From Lachnospiraceae bacterium AB2028 (lineage in GTDB: Bacteria > Bacillota > Clostridia > Lachnospirales > Lachnospiraceae), in contig JHYJ01000008.1 of NCBI GenBank assembly GCA_000621425.1, positions 62,001 to 126,000 on the forward strand: 64,000 nt of DNA, read 5' to 3'. Both the position numbers and the translations under genes were made by a program. Below, piece after piece: positions 10,130-41,653 of this stretch. How positions within the stretch are numbered: position 1 is the stretch's first letter; the number at the start of each line of letters is the position of its first letter. The notes beneath the pieces were generated by a model, which searched no databases, was not told where the DNA came from, and worked only from the letters and a program-made list of their open reading frames with translations.

Positions 10130-10171
10130 TCGGTTCTGTTTTATCCTATTTTTCTTTTTATTATCCGATAT

Positions 10172-10310
10172 TCAGATTGCTTCGCTGCTTTCGCAGCTCT
10201 CGCAATCTGACGGACATTCGCAATCCGCTTCGCTACTTGCTCATGTCCGTTCGGGATTTAAGCGCATATGGCTTTTCATGCAAGCATGAAGCCATATGCG
10301 TTTCAATCCC
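10172..10310. repeat. Cluster of three inverted repeats, one with a very long stem
   Basis: Three successive dyads fill the gap between the glycosyltransferase and ABC transporter genes. The first has arms 10172-10180 and 10202-10210 with an inner 5-bp stem. The second has arms 10210-10217 and 10243-10250. The third runs 10253-10310: GGGATT pairs with AATCCC outside a long CGCATATGGC/GCCATATGCG stem, interrupted only by one mismatch and a 2-base bulge, around a CAAG loop. There is no T-run, so a simple terminator does not explain it. It could be an mRNA-stabilising or processing structure within an operon, or a REP-like element. Confidence 0.7.
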
Positions 10311-10318
10311 TATATCGC

Positions 10319-22043: not shown

Positions 22044-22311
22044 ACTAAAACTTCCCACACCGTGTAGCCTTGTCTGACGGTGTTTAAGTGAGCCTTAGCA
22101 GTTCTCGAAAATGTTACAATACACCAGGAACGGACCGCCATGGAAGGCGGGACGAGTGAACAACGCTACATGGATGTAGCGTGTGAACGGTTCCGGAAAT
22201 ATACCATAGATAGGGGCATTTTCGTAAGAACTGCTTGGCGAACGGCACCACCGTCAGGCAAGCTACCGGTGTGAGGAAGTTAGTGGTATACAACAAGTGG
22301 GAAGTTTTAGT
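22044..22311 (+). mobile_element. 268-bp MITE-like element or structured RNA
   Basis: A perfect 15-bp terminal inverted repeat (22044-22058 and 22297-22311) is flanked on both sides by AATTA (22039-22043 and 22312-22316), like a target-site duplication. Inside, 22058-22082 pairs with 22252-22273 almost completely, then AGCAGTTCT with AGAACTGCT and GAAAATG with CATTTTC. A branched centre holds CCGCC/GGCGG (22135-22150), a 7-8-bp stem at 22164-22181 and GGAAC/GTTCC enclosing both. A U-G wobble in the long stem favours the plus strand as RNA. No gene is encoded. It lies between the RND permease and hemW. Confidence 0.65.
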
Positions 22312-35874: not shown

Positions 35875-36996
35875 TCAGTAATTTCCTAATATACGAAGAC
35901 TCCGAGCCTCTTCCCTGAGACCACACAGTGCATTCCTTACACCGGGATCAGAAAGATTCCCTTCAAAATCAAGGAAAAATCTGTACTCCCAGTTCCTTCC
36001 CTCTATGGGACGGCTTTCAATCTTTTTCATATTAAGGTTATTATATATGAAATGGGACAACATACGGTATAGGGAACCGCTTTCGTCCGGCACTTCAAAG
36101 CATAAGCTTATCTTCTTCGCATCCTTCACAAAAATTTTCCGGTTGCTTACCACTATGAACCTGGTGGTATTTGTATCGGAATGGTTTACCCCTTTCTGTA
36201 TTATATCAAGTCCGTAAACCTTTGCGGCATGTTCGCCTGCTATCGCTGCCTGGGTGACATCCTTTTCATCAGCAACCTTTTTAGCTGCAAAAGCATTGTT
36301 GCTCATGGAAATGATCTTCCACTCGGGGTGGTTTCGAAGGAAACGCTCCGACTGCATAAGTGACTGGGGATGGGAATAAACCGTCTGTATGGTATCCAAA
36401 TCAGTTCCTGCGTTTCCCAATAGGCAGTGTTCTATCTTTATCATCTGTTCGCCGACTATGTAATGCTCAAATTCAGCCAGCAGGTCATATATCTCGCTCA
36501 CTATACCGGCGGTGGAATTCTCTATCGGGAGCACAGCATACTCTGCCCTGCCTTCATCCAATGCAAGCATGGCATTCCTAAATGTATCCGTGTGGAAAAA
36601 GTCTGCCGTTTCCGAAAAGAAGGCATGGGCTGCCGCCTCGGAATAAGACCCTTCAGCGCCCTGATAAACAACGGTTGCCTTTTTATTCAGTGCGTCAACA
36701 GGCGCAAAAGGAAGGCTCCCCTTATCATCTGCAGCCAGGATGGAATACTGCAGCTTTCTGCTGCTTCCCATAAGCTGCCCAAAAAGGTCCTGAATCCCCT
36801 GCCTGTATTTCGGTTCCTTTACAAGTCCGGATACGCTCTTGAGCTTTGCATCCTCACGCGCTTTGTCAAATACGTTTTTTCCGTTTTTTCTTTTGGACTC
36901 GGCCACCTCGCAAGCAAGTGCCATACGTTTCTCGTACAGCTCTACAATCTGCCTGTCCACCTCATCCAGTTCTTTTCTTATATCTTCAAGTTCCAT
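35875..36996 (-). CDS. pheA: Bifunctional chorismate mutase / prephenate dehydratase
   Basis: 373 residues in the P-protein order. Residues 1-85 are an AroQ chorismate mutase (IRKELDEVDRQIVELYEKR, then VAESKRKNGKNVFD). About 108-285 is prephenate dehydratase (YQGAEGSYSEAAA, ENSTAGIV, NTTRFIVV). About 295-373 is an ACT domain with ESRP (SRPIEGRNWEYRF), which senses phenylalanine. The enzyme makes phenylpyruvate from chorismate. It starts 12 bp after the pyrI stop, so it probably shares the pyrBI transcript, an unusual neighbour for phenylalanine synthesis. Confidence 0.93.
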   Translation of the reverse strand: MELEDIRKELDEVDRQIVELYEKRMALACEVAESKRKNGKNVFDKAREDAKLKSVSGLVKEPKYRQGIQDLFGQLMGSSRKLQYSILAADDKGSLPFAPVDALNKKATVVYQGAEGSYSEAAAHAFFSETADFFHTDTFRNAMLALDEGRAEYAVLPIENSTAGIVSEIYDLLAEFEHYIVGEQMIKIEHCLLGNAGTDLDTIQTVYSHPQSLMQSERFLRNHPEWKIISMSNNAFAAKKVADEKDVTQAAIAGEHAAKVYGLDIIQKGVNHSDTNTTRFIVVSNRKIFVKDAKKISLCFEVPDESGSLYRMLSHFIYNNLNMKKIESRPIEGRNWEYRFFLDFEGNLSDPGVRNALCGLREEARSLRILGNY

Positions 36997-37008
36997 ATCT
37001 AAATAATC

Positions 37009-37440
37009 TTACATCTTCTCTGAATTTTTCTCGTCACAGTACTTGCATCTGTAGATTTCCTTTTCAGGATCTGCCAGGTAAAAGATATGTGGCAGCTCCT
37101 GCTCTATGGATGTGATACAGCGGGGATTCCTGCAGCGCATTACTCCCTTCAGCTCCTGGGGCAGCTCCAGTGGCTGCTTTTCAAGTATCTCGCCATCCTT
37201 TATAACATTTACTGTGATGGTATGGTCTATGACTGCCAATACATCAAGGTTGAGCATGTTTATGTCACACTCCACCTTTATTATATCCTTTCTGCCAAGC
37301 CTTTTGCTGTGGGCATTTTTTATGATAGCCACCATGCAGTCCAGCTTATCAAGTCCCAGATGGTAATATATGGACATTCCCTTGCCAACGGGAATATGAT
37401 CTAAAACAAAACCTTCATCAATCTTTCCGACGTTAAGCAT
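37009..37440 (-). CDS. pyrI: Aspartate carbamoyltransferase regulatory chain
   Basis: 143 residues from an ATG at 37440 with AAAGGAGG upstream. The N-terminal nucleotide-binding domain is followed by a zinc domain with C-x4-C (MRCRNPRCITS) and C-x2-C (YRCKYC). It binds CTP/ATP and sets the allosteric state of the PyrB trimers. It begins 14 bp after the pyrB stop, so pyrBI is an operon as in enterobacteria and many Clostridia. Confidence 0.95.
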   Translation of the reverse strand: MLNVGKIDEGFVLDHIPVGKGMSIYYHLGLDKLDCMVAIIKNAHSKRLGRKDIIKVECDINMLNLDVLAVIDHTITVNVIKDGEILEKQPLELPQELKGVMRCRNPRCITSIEQELPHIFYLADPEKEIYRCKYCDEKNSEKM

Positions 37441-37453
37441 TGTATTTCCTCCT

Positions 37454-38398
37454 TTAACCTGCCAGTCCGAGAAGCGTTGCAATAAGCGCCATTCTTACAT
37501 ACACGCCATACTGAACCTGCTCAAAATATACTGCCCTGGGATCCTCATCAATCTCCACCGATATTTCATTTACACGGGGAAGAGGATGGAGAACCAGCAT
37601 ATCCTTTGGTGCAAGCTCCATCTTTGTCTTATTCAGTACATAGAAATCTTTAAGTCTTACATAATCCTCTTCGTTGAAGAAACGTTCTCTCTGAACTCTG
37701 GTCATATAAAGCATGTCCAGTTTCGGCATACTGTCTTCCAGCCTTTCCACTTCCTCGAATTCCACATTCATACTCTTAAGTTTCTCACGCAGGTAGCTGG
37801 GTATGCGCAATTCCTCAGGTGAAATGAACACATATTTGTTATTGGGATAACGGAGCATTGCATTTACAAGTGAATGTACCGTCCGTCCGAACTTAAGATC
37901 CCCGCAAAGTCCTATGGTAAAACCGTCCAGCTGTCCCTTAAGGGATCTGATGGTAAGCATATCCGTAAGTGTCTGGGTGGGATGCTGATGTCCGCCGTCA
38001 CCTGCATTGATCACAGGGATCTTGGAATGAGCAGCTGCAACCATAGGCGCACCTTCCTTCGGATGTCTCATGGCACATATATCTGCAAAGCAGGATATTA
38101 CGCGTATAGTATCAGAAACACTTTCGCCCTTTGATGCCGATGATGAATTTGCATCAGAAAAACCTATAACCTGACCACCTAAGTCTAACATTGCTGTCTC
38201 AAAAGAAAGCCTTGTTCTGGTGCTGGGTTCATAAAAACATGTTGCCAGTTTCTTCCTTGCGCACAGATCCTTGTAATCATCCGGATGATCCTTGATATCC
38301 GAAGCAAGATCAAAAAGCTTATCCAGCTCATCCACCGAAAAATCCAAAGGTGTCATCAGATGTCTGAGCGGTCTGCCGTCTTTTCCGATCACTTCCAT
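37454..38398 (-). CDS. pyrB: Aspartate carbamoyltransferase catalytic chain
   Basis: 314 residues. The carbamoyl-phosphate loop is [12 protein letters not shown] near residue 56, the mobile Ser/Lys loop SSSASKGES near 82, then HPTQTLTD near 140 and HPLPRVNEI near 273. It makes carbamoyl aspartate, the committed step of pyrimidine synthesis. GGGAGG precedes the ATG. A promoter, a short leader ORF and an attenuator hairpin lie in the 230 bp upstream, giving a clear route to UTP-sensitive control. Confidence 0.96.
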
Positions 38399-38458
38399 AA
38401 ATTTTCCTCCCTAAGATAATCGATTAGCGATGATGAAATCACCGTGCGATAAATAAAC

Positions 38459-38484
38459 AAAAAAGAGAAACAAAACGTTTCTCT
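38459..38484 (-). terminator. Attenuator hairpin in the pyrB leader
   Basis: On the minus strand AGAGAAAC (38477-38484) pairs with GTTTCTCT (38464-38471) around GTTTT and runs into a U tract at 38459-38463. It is an intrinsic terminator about 65 nt upstream of the pyrB ATG and downstream of the promoter, so read-through decides pyrBI expression. The stop codon of the leader ORF forms the first base of the stem. Confidence 0.8.
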
Positions 38485-38567
38485 CAAATACTGTAAATAA
38501 TTAAAAAAATATGTGCTTCGACAAGAGCATTTGGTTTCATGAAATTATGTCTGTCACATCTGCACAT
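38484..38567 (-). CDS. pyrBI leader peptide (27 residues)
   Basis: ATG at 38567 with GGAG six to seven bases upstream opens 27 codons (MCRCDRHNF... ending IIYSI) and stops with TGA whose A begins the attenuator stem. The last third is read from a U-rich stretch (AUAUUUUUUUAAUUAUUU), where polymerase would pause when UTP is low. A ribosome that catches up to the stop codon would cover the stem and allow read-through. This is the design of the E. coli pyrL leader, though the sequence is unrelated. Too short for usual gene callers. Confidence 0.65.
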   Translation of the reverse strand: MCRCDRHNFMKPNALVEAHIFLIIYSI

Positions 38568-38598
38568 ACTTTTCTCCAACAAATCCGTACTGCGATAT

Positions 38599-38627
38599 AT
38601 GATACCATATAGGAGCTCTACATTCAA
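38599..38627 (-). promoter_or_regulatory. Promoter of pyrB-pyrI
   Basis: On the minus strand TTGAAT (38622-38627) and TATCAT (38599-38604) are separated by 17 bp. Transcription would start near 38592, about 25 nt ahead of the leader-peptide ATG. Confidence 0.6.
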
Positions 38628-39524: not shown

Positions 39525-40457
39525 TCAGCCGAATCCAACTATCTCATTCTTAGGTTTCTGGGTCTTCTTCACGCTGATTGCATGCAGCACAGGCCCTTCT
39601 GCCTGGTAATCCGAAAAATATTCCTTATTTACCTTAGCAGTTATCCTTATCCAATCCCTGTCCTTTAATTTGTCTGCATCCTTATACTCGCATGCATATC
39701 CTAAAAACTGCATATCGTCGGCACAGCAGGTCATGGCAAGACGGCCCGGCACAAAATATCCCTTGGGGAAGGTCTTGGGCTTAAGCACCATAGCATCGAA
39801 TTCTAAAATCTTGCCCTCGTACCTTTCGGCATGATCCATGGTATCCAGGTACCATATTCCGAAAGTCCTTTCATCTAAGACTATCTTGTCAGCCTTAAGA
39901 TCATAAGGCAGGTCTTCTTCAAATATCTGGTTTATCTCGCCCTGGGCATTTTCGAATATAACATCCGCATTGGCGTTCACAGCCTTAATGTTACGCCTGA
40001 AACTTGCCAGGTTGTCCATCACATTGTCGCAGCGGTTGAATATGATAAGCTCAGACTTCCTGATCATTTCAGCAAGCAGAGACCTCATATTCATATAGTA
40101 TGTCTCGAAGGTGGATGCATCCACGCAGGTAATCTGCTGCTCTAAGTTCCAGTGGAAAGGCAGCGTCATATCCTTCATGTTCCACATGCCGTTGTACTCA
40201 ATGATTATGCGTTCCGGATCAACTTCCTTTTCCAGTGCCATAAGCTTTTCGGTGGTGAAATCTTCTTCATCCTCGATAAGCTTTACCACGGTATTGGATG
40301 CCTTCAGCACATTTTCCTCATACTCCTCCTCGCCTTCTTCACAAAGGATCAGAAGGGTCTTACCCTTTATCTGGAAATAAGGCTGGGCGATCGTAAACTT
40401 TATGAACTGTGTCTTTCCGCTTTCAAGAAAACCATTTATAAGATATACCGGTCTCAT
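39525..40457 (-). CDS. CobW/P47K-like GTPase, divergent
   Basis: 310 residues from the ATG at 40457 (AAGGGG upstream; an in-frame GTG seven codons earlier is less likely). The P-loop is NGFLESGKTQ near residue 6-15 and a Walker B-like IIIEYNG is near 87. It lacks the CxCC zinc motif of the neighbouring CobW protein. FNRCDN near 145 replaces the guanine-specificity NKxD. The C-terminal 60 residues (PVLHAISVKKTQKP) look like a separate small beta domain. It lies 17 bp downstream of the second CobW gene and probably works with it in metal handling. Confidence 0.75.
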   Translation of the reverse strand: MRPVYLINGFLESGKTQFIKFTIAQPYFQIKGKTLLILCEEGEEEYEENVLKASNTVVKLIEDEEDFTTEKLMALEKEVDPERIIIEYNGMWNMKDMTLPFHWNLEQQITCVDASTFETYYMNMRSLLAEMIRKSELIIFNRCDNVMDNLASFRRNIKAVNANADVIFENAQGEINQIFEEDLPYDLKADKIVLDERTFGIWYLDTMDHAERYEGKILEFDAMVLKPKTFPKGYFVPGRLAMTCCADDMQFLGYACEYKDADKLKDRDWIRITAKVNKEYFSDYQAEGPVLHAISVKKTQKPKNEIVGFG

Positions 40458-40474
40458 ACTTCCCCTTTCCGCTA

Positions 40475-41653
40475 TCACTTCTTAAAAAGTTCTCCAAGCT
40501 CTTCTTCATTGAGCTTTGATCCTATCACACAGAATTTACCCGTAGGCTGGGGCTCACCCTTGCGGACATTGCTCTCGCCGGGCACATAGTCGAAATAGAT
40601 CCAGCCGCCGTCAACAGAAGGAACCATGCCCTTCGCACGGAGTACTGTTCCGTAGGTCACTGCATCTACCAGCTTTGCAAGAGCATCGCTGATCTCTTCT
40701 TCCGTATACTTCGCTGCGGTCTCCATTCCCCAGCTGCCAAATACCTCGTCAGCATGATGGTGATGATGGTGGTCATGATCATGATGATGGTGGCACTCGC
40801 ACTCGGGATCATCACACTCCTCGCCATCATGATGGTGGTGATGATGCTCGTCGTGATCATGATGATGCTCATGCTCATCGTGGTCATGATGATGGTGCTC
40901 ATGTTCGTCTTCATCATCGTCATCATGATGGTGGTGGCAGCAATGATGCTCGTGCTCGTCTTCATCATCGTCGTCATGATGGTGATGACAGCAATGCTCA
41001 TGCTCATCATGATGCTCGTATTTCTCAATAACCTCTTTTAAGAGAGTGTCCATAAGGTCAACACCTTCCATTGTATCCTTTATGGATGCTCCGGTTATCT
41101 GATCCCAGGGTGTGGTTATGATAGTTGCCTTTGCATTATGCTCCTTCAGGATATCCAGGGTCTTCTGAAGCTTCTCATCCGAGATATTATCAGTACGGCT
41201 TAAGATAATGGTTCCCGCATTCTCAACCTGGTTTATGAAGAACTCACCGAAATTCTTAACATAGAGCTTTGCCTTATTGGCATCCACAACAGTAATTGCA
41301 GAATTAAGCTTTGCACCTTCACCGAGATCCGCCTGCTCAACTGCCCTTACCACGTCAGAAAGCTTTCCAACGCCTGAAGGTTCTATAACAATACGGTCAG
41401 GTGTAAATCTGCTCATAACATCCTTAAGTGCTGTACCGAAATCGCCCACCAGCGAGCAGCAGATACAGCCGGAATTCATCTCCGTGATCTCCACACCGGC
41501 TTCCTTTAAGAAACCGCCGTCTATTCCTATCTCGCCGAATTCATTCTCAATAAGCACTACTTGCTCACCCTTCCAGGTTTCTGCAAGAAGTTTCTTTATA
41601 AGAGTGGTCTTTCCTGCACCAAGAAATCCTGATATAACATCTATTTTTGTCAT
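40475..41653 (-). CDS. CobW-family metallochaperone GTPase with a 90-residue His/Asp loop
   Basis: 392 residues. P-loop SGFLGAGKTT at 8-17, the metal-binding GCICC (Cys63, Cys65, Cys66), Walker B IVIEPSG near 89 and SRTDN near 152 define a COG0523 GTPase. Residues 212-302 are almost only His, Asp and Glu with Cys pairs, including a near-duplicate CCHHHHDDDDEDEHEHH. A C-terminal CobW_C domain follows. Such proteins deliver zinc, cobalt or nickel to clients; the loop probably stores or buffers metal. AAGGGG precedes the ATG. It is the first gene of a pair of CobW genes. Confidence 0.9.
   Translation of the reverse strand: MTKIDVISGFLGAGKTTLIKKLLAETWKGEQVVLIENEFGEIGIDGGFLKEAGVEITEMNSGCICCSLVGDFGTALKDVMSRFTPDRIVIEPSGVGKLSDVVRAVEQADLGEGAKLNSAITVVDANKAKLYVKNFGEFFINQVENAGTIILSRTDNISDEKLQKTLDILKEHNAKATIITTPWDQITGASIKDTMEGVDLMDTLLKEVIEKYEHHDEHEHCCHHHHDDDDEDEHEHHCCHHHHDDDDEDEHEHHHHDHDEHEHHHDHDEHHHHHHDGEECDDPECECHHHHDHDHHHHHHADEVFGSWGMETAAKYTEEEISDALAKLVDAVTYGTVLRAKGMVPSVDGGWIYFDYVPGESNVRKGEPQPTGKFCVIGSKLNEEELGELFKK

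Follow-up and report, generated by a model that had tools for sequence, protein, structure and literature searches.

A candidate UTP-sensing attenuator ahead of pyrB

In the 64-kb stretch of Lachnospiraceae DNA analysed here (hereafter the window), we found an element upstream of the aspartate carbamoyltransferase genes that is probably a ribosome-coupled, UTP-sensing transcription attenuator of the pyrBI type. The parts of this element, their order and spacing, their conservation in the pyrB clade of the window, their recurrence elsewhere and the absence of PyrR are read from the genomes themselves. It is very likely that an attenuator stands ahead of pyrB, and only a little less so that its leader ORF is translated; that UTP is the signal, acting through coupling, seems probable on the same sequence evidence, with less assurance. 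PyrR is the textbook regulator of pyr genes in Firmicutes. If our reading is correct, an iconic enterobacterial control device has re-evolved in Firmicutes, and the element is a first candidate for the control of aspartate carbamoyltransferase in PyrR-less Lachnospiraceae. Our search of the open-access literature, a scope outside which most subscription papers fall, found no paper on a pyrB leader-peptide attenuator in Clostridia.

All parts lie on the reverse strand. The catalytic chain gene pyrB (37454..38398; Pfam OTCace_N and OTCace domains) is followed by the regulatory chain gene pyrI (37009..37482; PyrI and PyrI_C domains), whose listed ORF overlaps the end of pyrB. Close behind pyrI, in the window and in all eight clade members, is pheA (35875-36996; chorismate mutase and prephenate dehydratase domains), as if pyrB-pyrI-pheA were one operon. 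Given this arrangement in the clade, pyrimidines need not be the sole concern of the operon.

The promoter (38599..38627) consists of TTGAAT (38627-38622), a 17-nt spacer and TATCAT (38604-38599), with a TG ahead of the -10 box. It was identified by a consensus scan, which returned 10 sites in the data against a mean of 13.1 in shuffles and so shows no excess over chance, and by its recurrence as TTGAA[AT]-17-TA-N3-T at the matching position in all six leader-bearing clade members. A Shine-Dalgarno (SD) sequence, GGAG (38574..38577), lies 6 nt ahead of the ATG (38567-38565) of a pyrL-like leader ORF of 27 codons (38484..38567), which encodes MCRCDRHNFMKPNALVEAHIFLIIYSI and ends in TGA (38486-38484). 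Within the ORF, a T7 run (38503..38509), the presumed UTP-sensitive pause region, ends 17 nt upstream of the hairpin, and 22 of the 45 nt preceding the hairpin are T (0.49). Of 3622 overlapping control windows, 8.0% taken upstream of hairpin-less pyrB genes reach this value. The intrinsic terminator stem-loop GAGAGAAACGTTTTGTTTCTCTT (38463..38485), the putative attenuator, is kept in relatives; it has 10 pairs, a loop of 3 and an energy of -9.6 kcal/mol, and is followed by TTTTGTTTAT, with the U-tract TTTTGTTTATTT at 38451..38462. The leader TGA overlaps the stem by 2 nt.

A comparable ORF (SD-led, 20-60 codons, stop at most 20 nt from the hairpin) arose in 18 of 2000 dinucleotide shuffles of the 140 nt preceding the hairpin. 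Our own hairpin finder located 28 hairpins in the window, five of them directly upstream of a long SD-led ORF, and the pyrB hairpin is the sole leader-ORF case among these five. Between the stem end and pyrB there are 64 nt, in which the scan lists no promoter-like site. The first-pass annotation had claimed this promoter, the GGAG-led ORF and a U-rich stretch in the ORF ahead of the hairpin, and all three are borne out. It had also claimed that the TGA abuts an intrinsic terminator (38484-38459); the terminator stands, but the abutment does not, as the stem starts inside the stop codon.

Conservation in the pyrB clade

We searched for pyrB in 144 genomes and in genome contigs (best 80 loci). 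In a FastTree pyrB tree of 99 rows, the window pyrB falls in an eight-member clade with a support of 100. A leader ORF conserved in relatives, which the first-pass annotation had named as a check on its reading, is present in six of the eight species, and the layout also occurs in six genomes outside the clade. The six clade species carrying the unit of promoter, ORF, U-tract and hairpin are the window's own genome, L004, L005, L006, L008 and L009. The unit is kept from the promoter to the U-tract in the first four and has a diverged form in L008 and L009, and both the GGAG and the hairpin are found in all six. The stretch 3' of the hairpin varies freely, with 51-137 nt from the hairpin start to pyrB in these members. 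In L006, only 27 nt separate the stem end from pyrB, compared with 50 to 114 nt in the others. This is too short for a promoter, so the pyrB RNA must cross the hairpin, which argues for an attenuator. Judged by this spacing, passage of pyrB transcripts through the hairpin is certain in L006, and it is likely in the other leader-bearing members.

Leader sequences vary within the clade. The L005 leader has one T fewer, and its frame crosses the hairpin and stops 63 nt after the hairpin start; it resembles in this respect E. coli pyrL, whose stop lies 47 nt past the hairpin start, and such a frame may be harmless. The leaders of L008 and L009 differ in sequence (MRMHGYMHGNSMKRYQNTQCHLHFFNI and MMMHGYMHYNSMMKTRNTQCHLYFFIS, respectively) and stop 4 nt upstream of the hairpin. 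Here the first ATG follows the GGAG directly; a later in-frame ATG (25 codons), placed 6 nt from the GGAG, is thus the likelier start. Both are less U-rich before the hairpin (0.36 and 0.38), each with a T6.

The remaining two clade members have no leader. L007 also lacks a hairpin, and a CobW-like gene, identified by tblastn, runs directly into its pyrB. In L010, a CobW-like gene (tblastn) ends 9 nt upstream of a similar hairpin. CobW-like genes lie directly ahead of pyrB in L007 and L010, and ahead of the leader promoter in L008 and L009. The window itself has two adjacent CobW-like genes (39525-41653, reverse strand): one (39525-40478) has cobW and DUF1980_C domains, and the other (40475-41653), CobW-like by eye, contains a long His/Asp/Glu-rich stretch.

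Constraint on the leader RNA

In the first 19 leader codons, the window has 0, 2 and 0 third-position differences from L004, L005 and L006, whose pyrB third positions are 80, 69 and 67% identical to those of the window. The sequences indicate, by leader codons without a wobble pattern, that something is acting on the RNA beyond an open frame. One guess at the source of this conservation in the 5' half is a sequence-specific pause element. For E. coli pyrL, one study reports a sequence-dependent, NusA-independent pause (PMC9291695).

Conservation at the RNA level in excess of coding need might also be expected if a structured RNA or protein-binding leader controlled the terminator and the ORF were incidental. 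A stem, ATGTGC/GCACAT, which spans the start codon and ends at the U-run, is kept in four of four close relatives and would fit this idea. However, the folding data argue against it: a single pair of the 32 in the consensus shows a two-sided change, the covariation term is unfavourable, and folding upstream of the hairpin is barely or not better than in shuffles (z of -1.6, -0.72, 0.54, -0.29 and -1.02 for five members of the clade; the window sequence is equalled by 16 of 200 shuffles). An RNA switch with competing folds was rejected on the same grounds, since the best fold shows no competition between the upstream stem and the terminator. No known Rfam riboswitch or leader is found at this position at the gathering score, and relaxing E up to 5 gives none credible (best E 0.96, a snoRNA). 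Moreover, the genomes outside the clade retain the ORF and the U-tract but not the sequence. We therefore consider a structured or protein-bound leader unlikely.

Recurrence outside the clade

We surveyed pyrB upstream regions from 250 loci, of which 229 were distinct with at least 120 nt upstream; the other 21 were dropped as duplicates or as having less than 120 nt. The loci comprise 30 + 60 regions from the 144-genome search (90 loci used), 80 genome contigs and the best-scoring 80 new pyrB places among the matches listed in a family-wide search; this sample leans towards the window's relatives, and two loci have no clear pyrB start. Automatic classification placed 110 regions in a class without a hairpin in the 230 nt upstream of pyrB, 86 in a class with a hairpin behind a long gene (including L098, where there is in fact no hairpin), 16 in a class with a short ORF at the hairpin (including L101 and L149, which resemble nitroreductase gene ends) and 17 in a hairpin-only class (including L005 and L201, despite their slipped or weakly led leaders). 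The 110 regions without a hairpin show that the family has other ways.

Of the 33 hairpins without a long gene in front, 11 have a strict leader ORF (ATG, SD, 20-60 codons, stop at most 20 nt from the strongest hairpin), compared with 0.29 expected from shuffles; these cases are not independent, five of them coming from the window's clade. Behind long genes there are two such ORFs in 86 regions (1.1 expected from shuffles). In nine of the 11 strict leaders, T makes up at least 0.49 of the 45 nt preceding the hairpin, against the 8.0% of control windows mentioned above. In 375 kb of related loci, none of a further 16 hairpins that precede genes has a strict leader.

Outside the clade, the six leader-bearing genomes are alike in layout, and their leader sequences are unrelated: G078 (MNNTNMQSIFHMNNHKSSVLFSSNFKAFTILFFNFILF), L051 (MKNVSISRFRIHSYFISILFLSLFFSY), L065 (MFHALSHFIIYFPIHFQTVYFHICSI), Butyrivibrio sp. 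MC2013 (L080; MLKLFKLSTSKMYADLPSVTISIFHNSHYFK), G380 (MPISNPKQYMHMTLFSHFIFYII) and G324 (MKLHAKHTKKAYHGVCGDSVSISIYQFFQKKG). A TTG-17-TAT promoter, its -10 box ending 33-39 nt upstream of the leader ATG, is present in each, although promoters in this comparison are the best-scoring within a range and thus biased upward. For G380, the larger hairpin was chosen by eye where the finder had taken an inner one, and the longest T run of G324 is 3. G123, from another family of the order, is a weaker case, its leader lacking a good SD. On the pyrB tree, where 13 rows, including L005 and G123, carry the label 'U-rich leader', this trait undergoes nine changes, at least four of which are forced by well-supported branches. 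L051 and L065 lie close together on the tree and could stem from a single origin. Several origins of the U-rich leaders are likely from this phylogeny; alternatively, leaders might have been lost repeatedly.

Short SD-led leaders of 15, 14 and 13 codons that end at the hairpin are also found in L084, L090 and L107, where there is no U-tract, and their signal, if any, must differ. This recurrence of SD, ORF and stop at the hairpin without a U-tract raises the alternative that a translated leader controls the pyrB hairpin in response to something other than UTP, such as the general state of translation or growth, or an amino acid. Phenylalanine is an example, as U-rich codons bring Phe, Ile and Leu, and pheA lies behind pyrI throughout the clade. 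However, the window peptide has only two Phe residues and no run of regulatory codons, and pheA is also found behind pyrI in the leaderless L007 and L010. In the six leader loci from outside the clade it is not found behind pyrB, three of these loci reaching about 0.6 kb or less past pyrI. A ribosome stalled for an amino acid in the T-rich stretch would, moreover, stop short of the hairpin. The U-richness of nine of the 11 strict leaders, ahead of a gene that leads to UTP, favours UTP, and we regard a different signal as improbable, if marginally less so than a structured leader.

Long genes ending at the pyrB hairpin

In 86 of the 229 regions, the pyrB hairpin lies within 18 nt behind the stop of a long gene (within 30 nt was asked for). 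By tblastn, 81 of these genes are nitroreductases, three are CobW-like and two are other genes; that of L020 (867-1500) is a nitroreductase by Pfam. At most 45 nt separate the stem end from pyrB in 53 of the 86, leaving little space for a promoter. The median distance from stop to hairpin is 6 nt at 85 long-gene loci and 12.5 nt at 22 control genes (p = 0.004). We set this short distance aside as a proof of coupling: the class had been preselected at 30 nt or less, and a B. subtilis study reports short spacing without coupling (PMC7858274).

These 86 hairpins can be ordinary leaky terminators. We did not count them as evidence, because two papers on B. subtilis report terminators close after stop codons and termination that does not respond to translation (PMC7858274, PMC7819879). 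The same could be asked of the window, where a leaky terminator might set a fixed pyrBI level and the adjacency of ORF and hairpin might be the ordinary stop-terminator spacing of Firmicutes. Both the frequency of the long-gene arrangement and the spacing reported for B. subtilis (PMC7858274) speak for this. Yet a fixed level requires neither a promoter-driven short ORF nor an internal U-tract, and both recur, which makes a merely leaky terminator very improbable.

PyrR and the other pyr genes

The first-pass annotation had stated that Clostridia more often use PyrR. This does not hold for the present family, in which one of 89 genomes has a match to the PyrR model over the cut-off; the total is 18 of 144 genomes, the other 17 being among the 55 from other families of the order. 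PyrR-binding RNA is found in none of the 89 family genomes and in 13 of the 55 others, by a search whose filters lose weak matches. The window and its genome have no match to RF00515 (the PyrR-binding RNA), and the best match to NF003549 in the genome scores 37.4 bits against a cut-off of 138. With neither PyrR over the cut-off nor PyrR RNA in the genome, PyrR control of the window pyrB was rejected.

Reading the DNA and ATG-led frames upstream of carA, pyrC-K-D and pyrF in the window's genome, we recognised no unit of promoter, U-rich leader and hairpin. Hairpins with Ts stand ahead of pyrC and ahead of pyrF. Upstream of pyrF (L302:1310-1410), an SD-led frame of 29 codons (MKKGTGWSESAPFSFWEHGLSVAKKGALC) crosses a hairpin and then Ts. 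The carA gene (L144) seems to be served by its own promoter, with a short leader that lacks an attenuator, and a gene end resembling CTP synthase lies just upstream of it (L144:1000-1560). We did not find a member of the uracil/xanthine permease family or locate pyrE; L143, with a weak phosphoribosyltransferase match, has no recognisable pyr gene.

Comparison with known attenuators and a proposed mechanism

E. coli pyrL-pyrBI was read from NC_000913.3 and measured with the same script as the Lachnospiraceae cases. Like the window, it has its own promoter, a short SD-led ORF, a U-rich stretch and an intrinsic terminator, followed by pyrB and pyrI, and in both a ribosome on the leader could cover the hairpin. 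The distance from the leader ATG to the hairpin is 88 nt in E. coli, 82 nt in the window and 77-122 nt in the twelve Lachnospiraceae cases; that from the end of the longest T run to the hairpin is 23, 17 and 1-32 nt, and that from the hairpin start to pyrB is 50, 87 and 47-137 nt. The differences are that the window leader has 27 codons (44 in pyrL), that it stops at the hairpin start and not beyond it, that its longest T run is 7 (5 in E. coli) with a T fraction before the hairpin of 0.49 (0.31), and that pheA follows pyrI. Relatedness of the window peptide to E. coli pyrL looks unlikely by eye, and leaders vary even within Lachnospiraceae. The residues C4, R6 and H7 occupy the same ungapped positions in the window leader (38567-38547, reverse strand) and in E. 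coli pyrL (L210), which may well be chance. The pyrBI-attenuator arrangement claimed by the first-pass annotation is thus supported by layout, spacing, conservation in the clade and recurrence outside it.

Other attenuators share fewer features with the window. In the PyrR-dependent attenuation of Bacillus, an intrinsic terminator precedes the pyr genes, as here, but that system depends on the RNA and protein (RF00515, NF003549) that the window's genome lacks at the thresholds given above. Attenuators of the trp and his type combine a leader ORF and a terminator, with the outcome set by the position of the ribosome. Unlike these, the window leader has no regulatory-codon run, and its best fold contains no competing antiterminator.

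From this arrangement we infer where transcription starts, where polymerase pauses, that the ORF is translated, how the hairpin is occluded and that UTP is the signal. Polymerase would start about 25 nt upstream of the leader ATG, and a ribosome would load as polymerase enters the U-rich stretch. When UTP is high, polymerase would move on unpaused with the ribosome behind it, the hairpin would form and transcription would end ahead of pyrB. When UTP is low, polymerase would stall in the U-rich stretch and the ribosome would catch up to the stop codon or beside it. As this stop codon overlaps the stem, a ribosome standing there would prevent the hairpin from forming, and pyrBI would be transcribed. 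Studies of E. coli report that the ribosome represses almost completely a terminator lying a few nucleotides after a stop codon, that pausing sets a steep distance dependence at the pyrBI attenuator (PMC4824070), and that coupling over pyrL is necessary to prevent termination (PMC5021804).

Reports on B. subtilis describe transcription as running ahead of translation (PMC7858274, PMC7819879), termination as insensitive to translation (PMC7819879) and terminators as lying close behind stop codons (PMC7858274). On this account, any coupling in a Firmicute would need to be set up locally. Attenuation with pausing has been reported for B. subtilis vmlR (PMC9226507). The promoter-driven short ORF with its U-rich stretch is in this respect unlike the long-gene class, as polymerase would wait exactly at UTP shortage.

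Evolution of the element and additional observations

Considering the leaders outside the clade, a pyrBI-type sensor has probably evolved repeatedly. A broader reading is a tentative possibility that we lean slightly against: in a family largely without PyrR, ribosome-coupled UTP sensing before pyrBI might have arisen several times from unrelated sequence, with the hairpin constant and the preceding ORF exchangeable (a short U-rich leader in some species, in others a full-length nitroreductase or CobW-like gene whose end lies a few nt from the hairpin), and with low UTP itself holding polymerase back, the switch might operate even where transcription normally outruns translation.

The pyrB terminators in many loci share a core, GAAGAG...CTCTTC or AGAGAAAC...GTTTCTCT, though the preceding ORF differs. 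Elsewhere in the window, Rfam models identify a Clostridiales-1 sRNA (10166-10317, reverse strand; 110.9 bits) and a TwoAYGGAY RNA, typed as cis-regulatory (22083-22248, forward strand; 90.5 bits).
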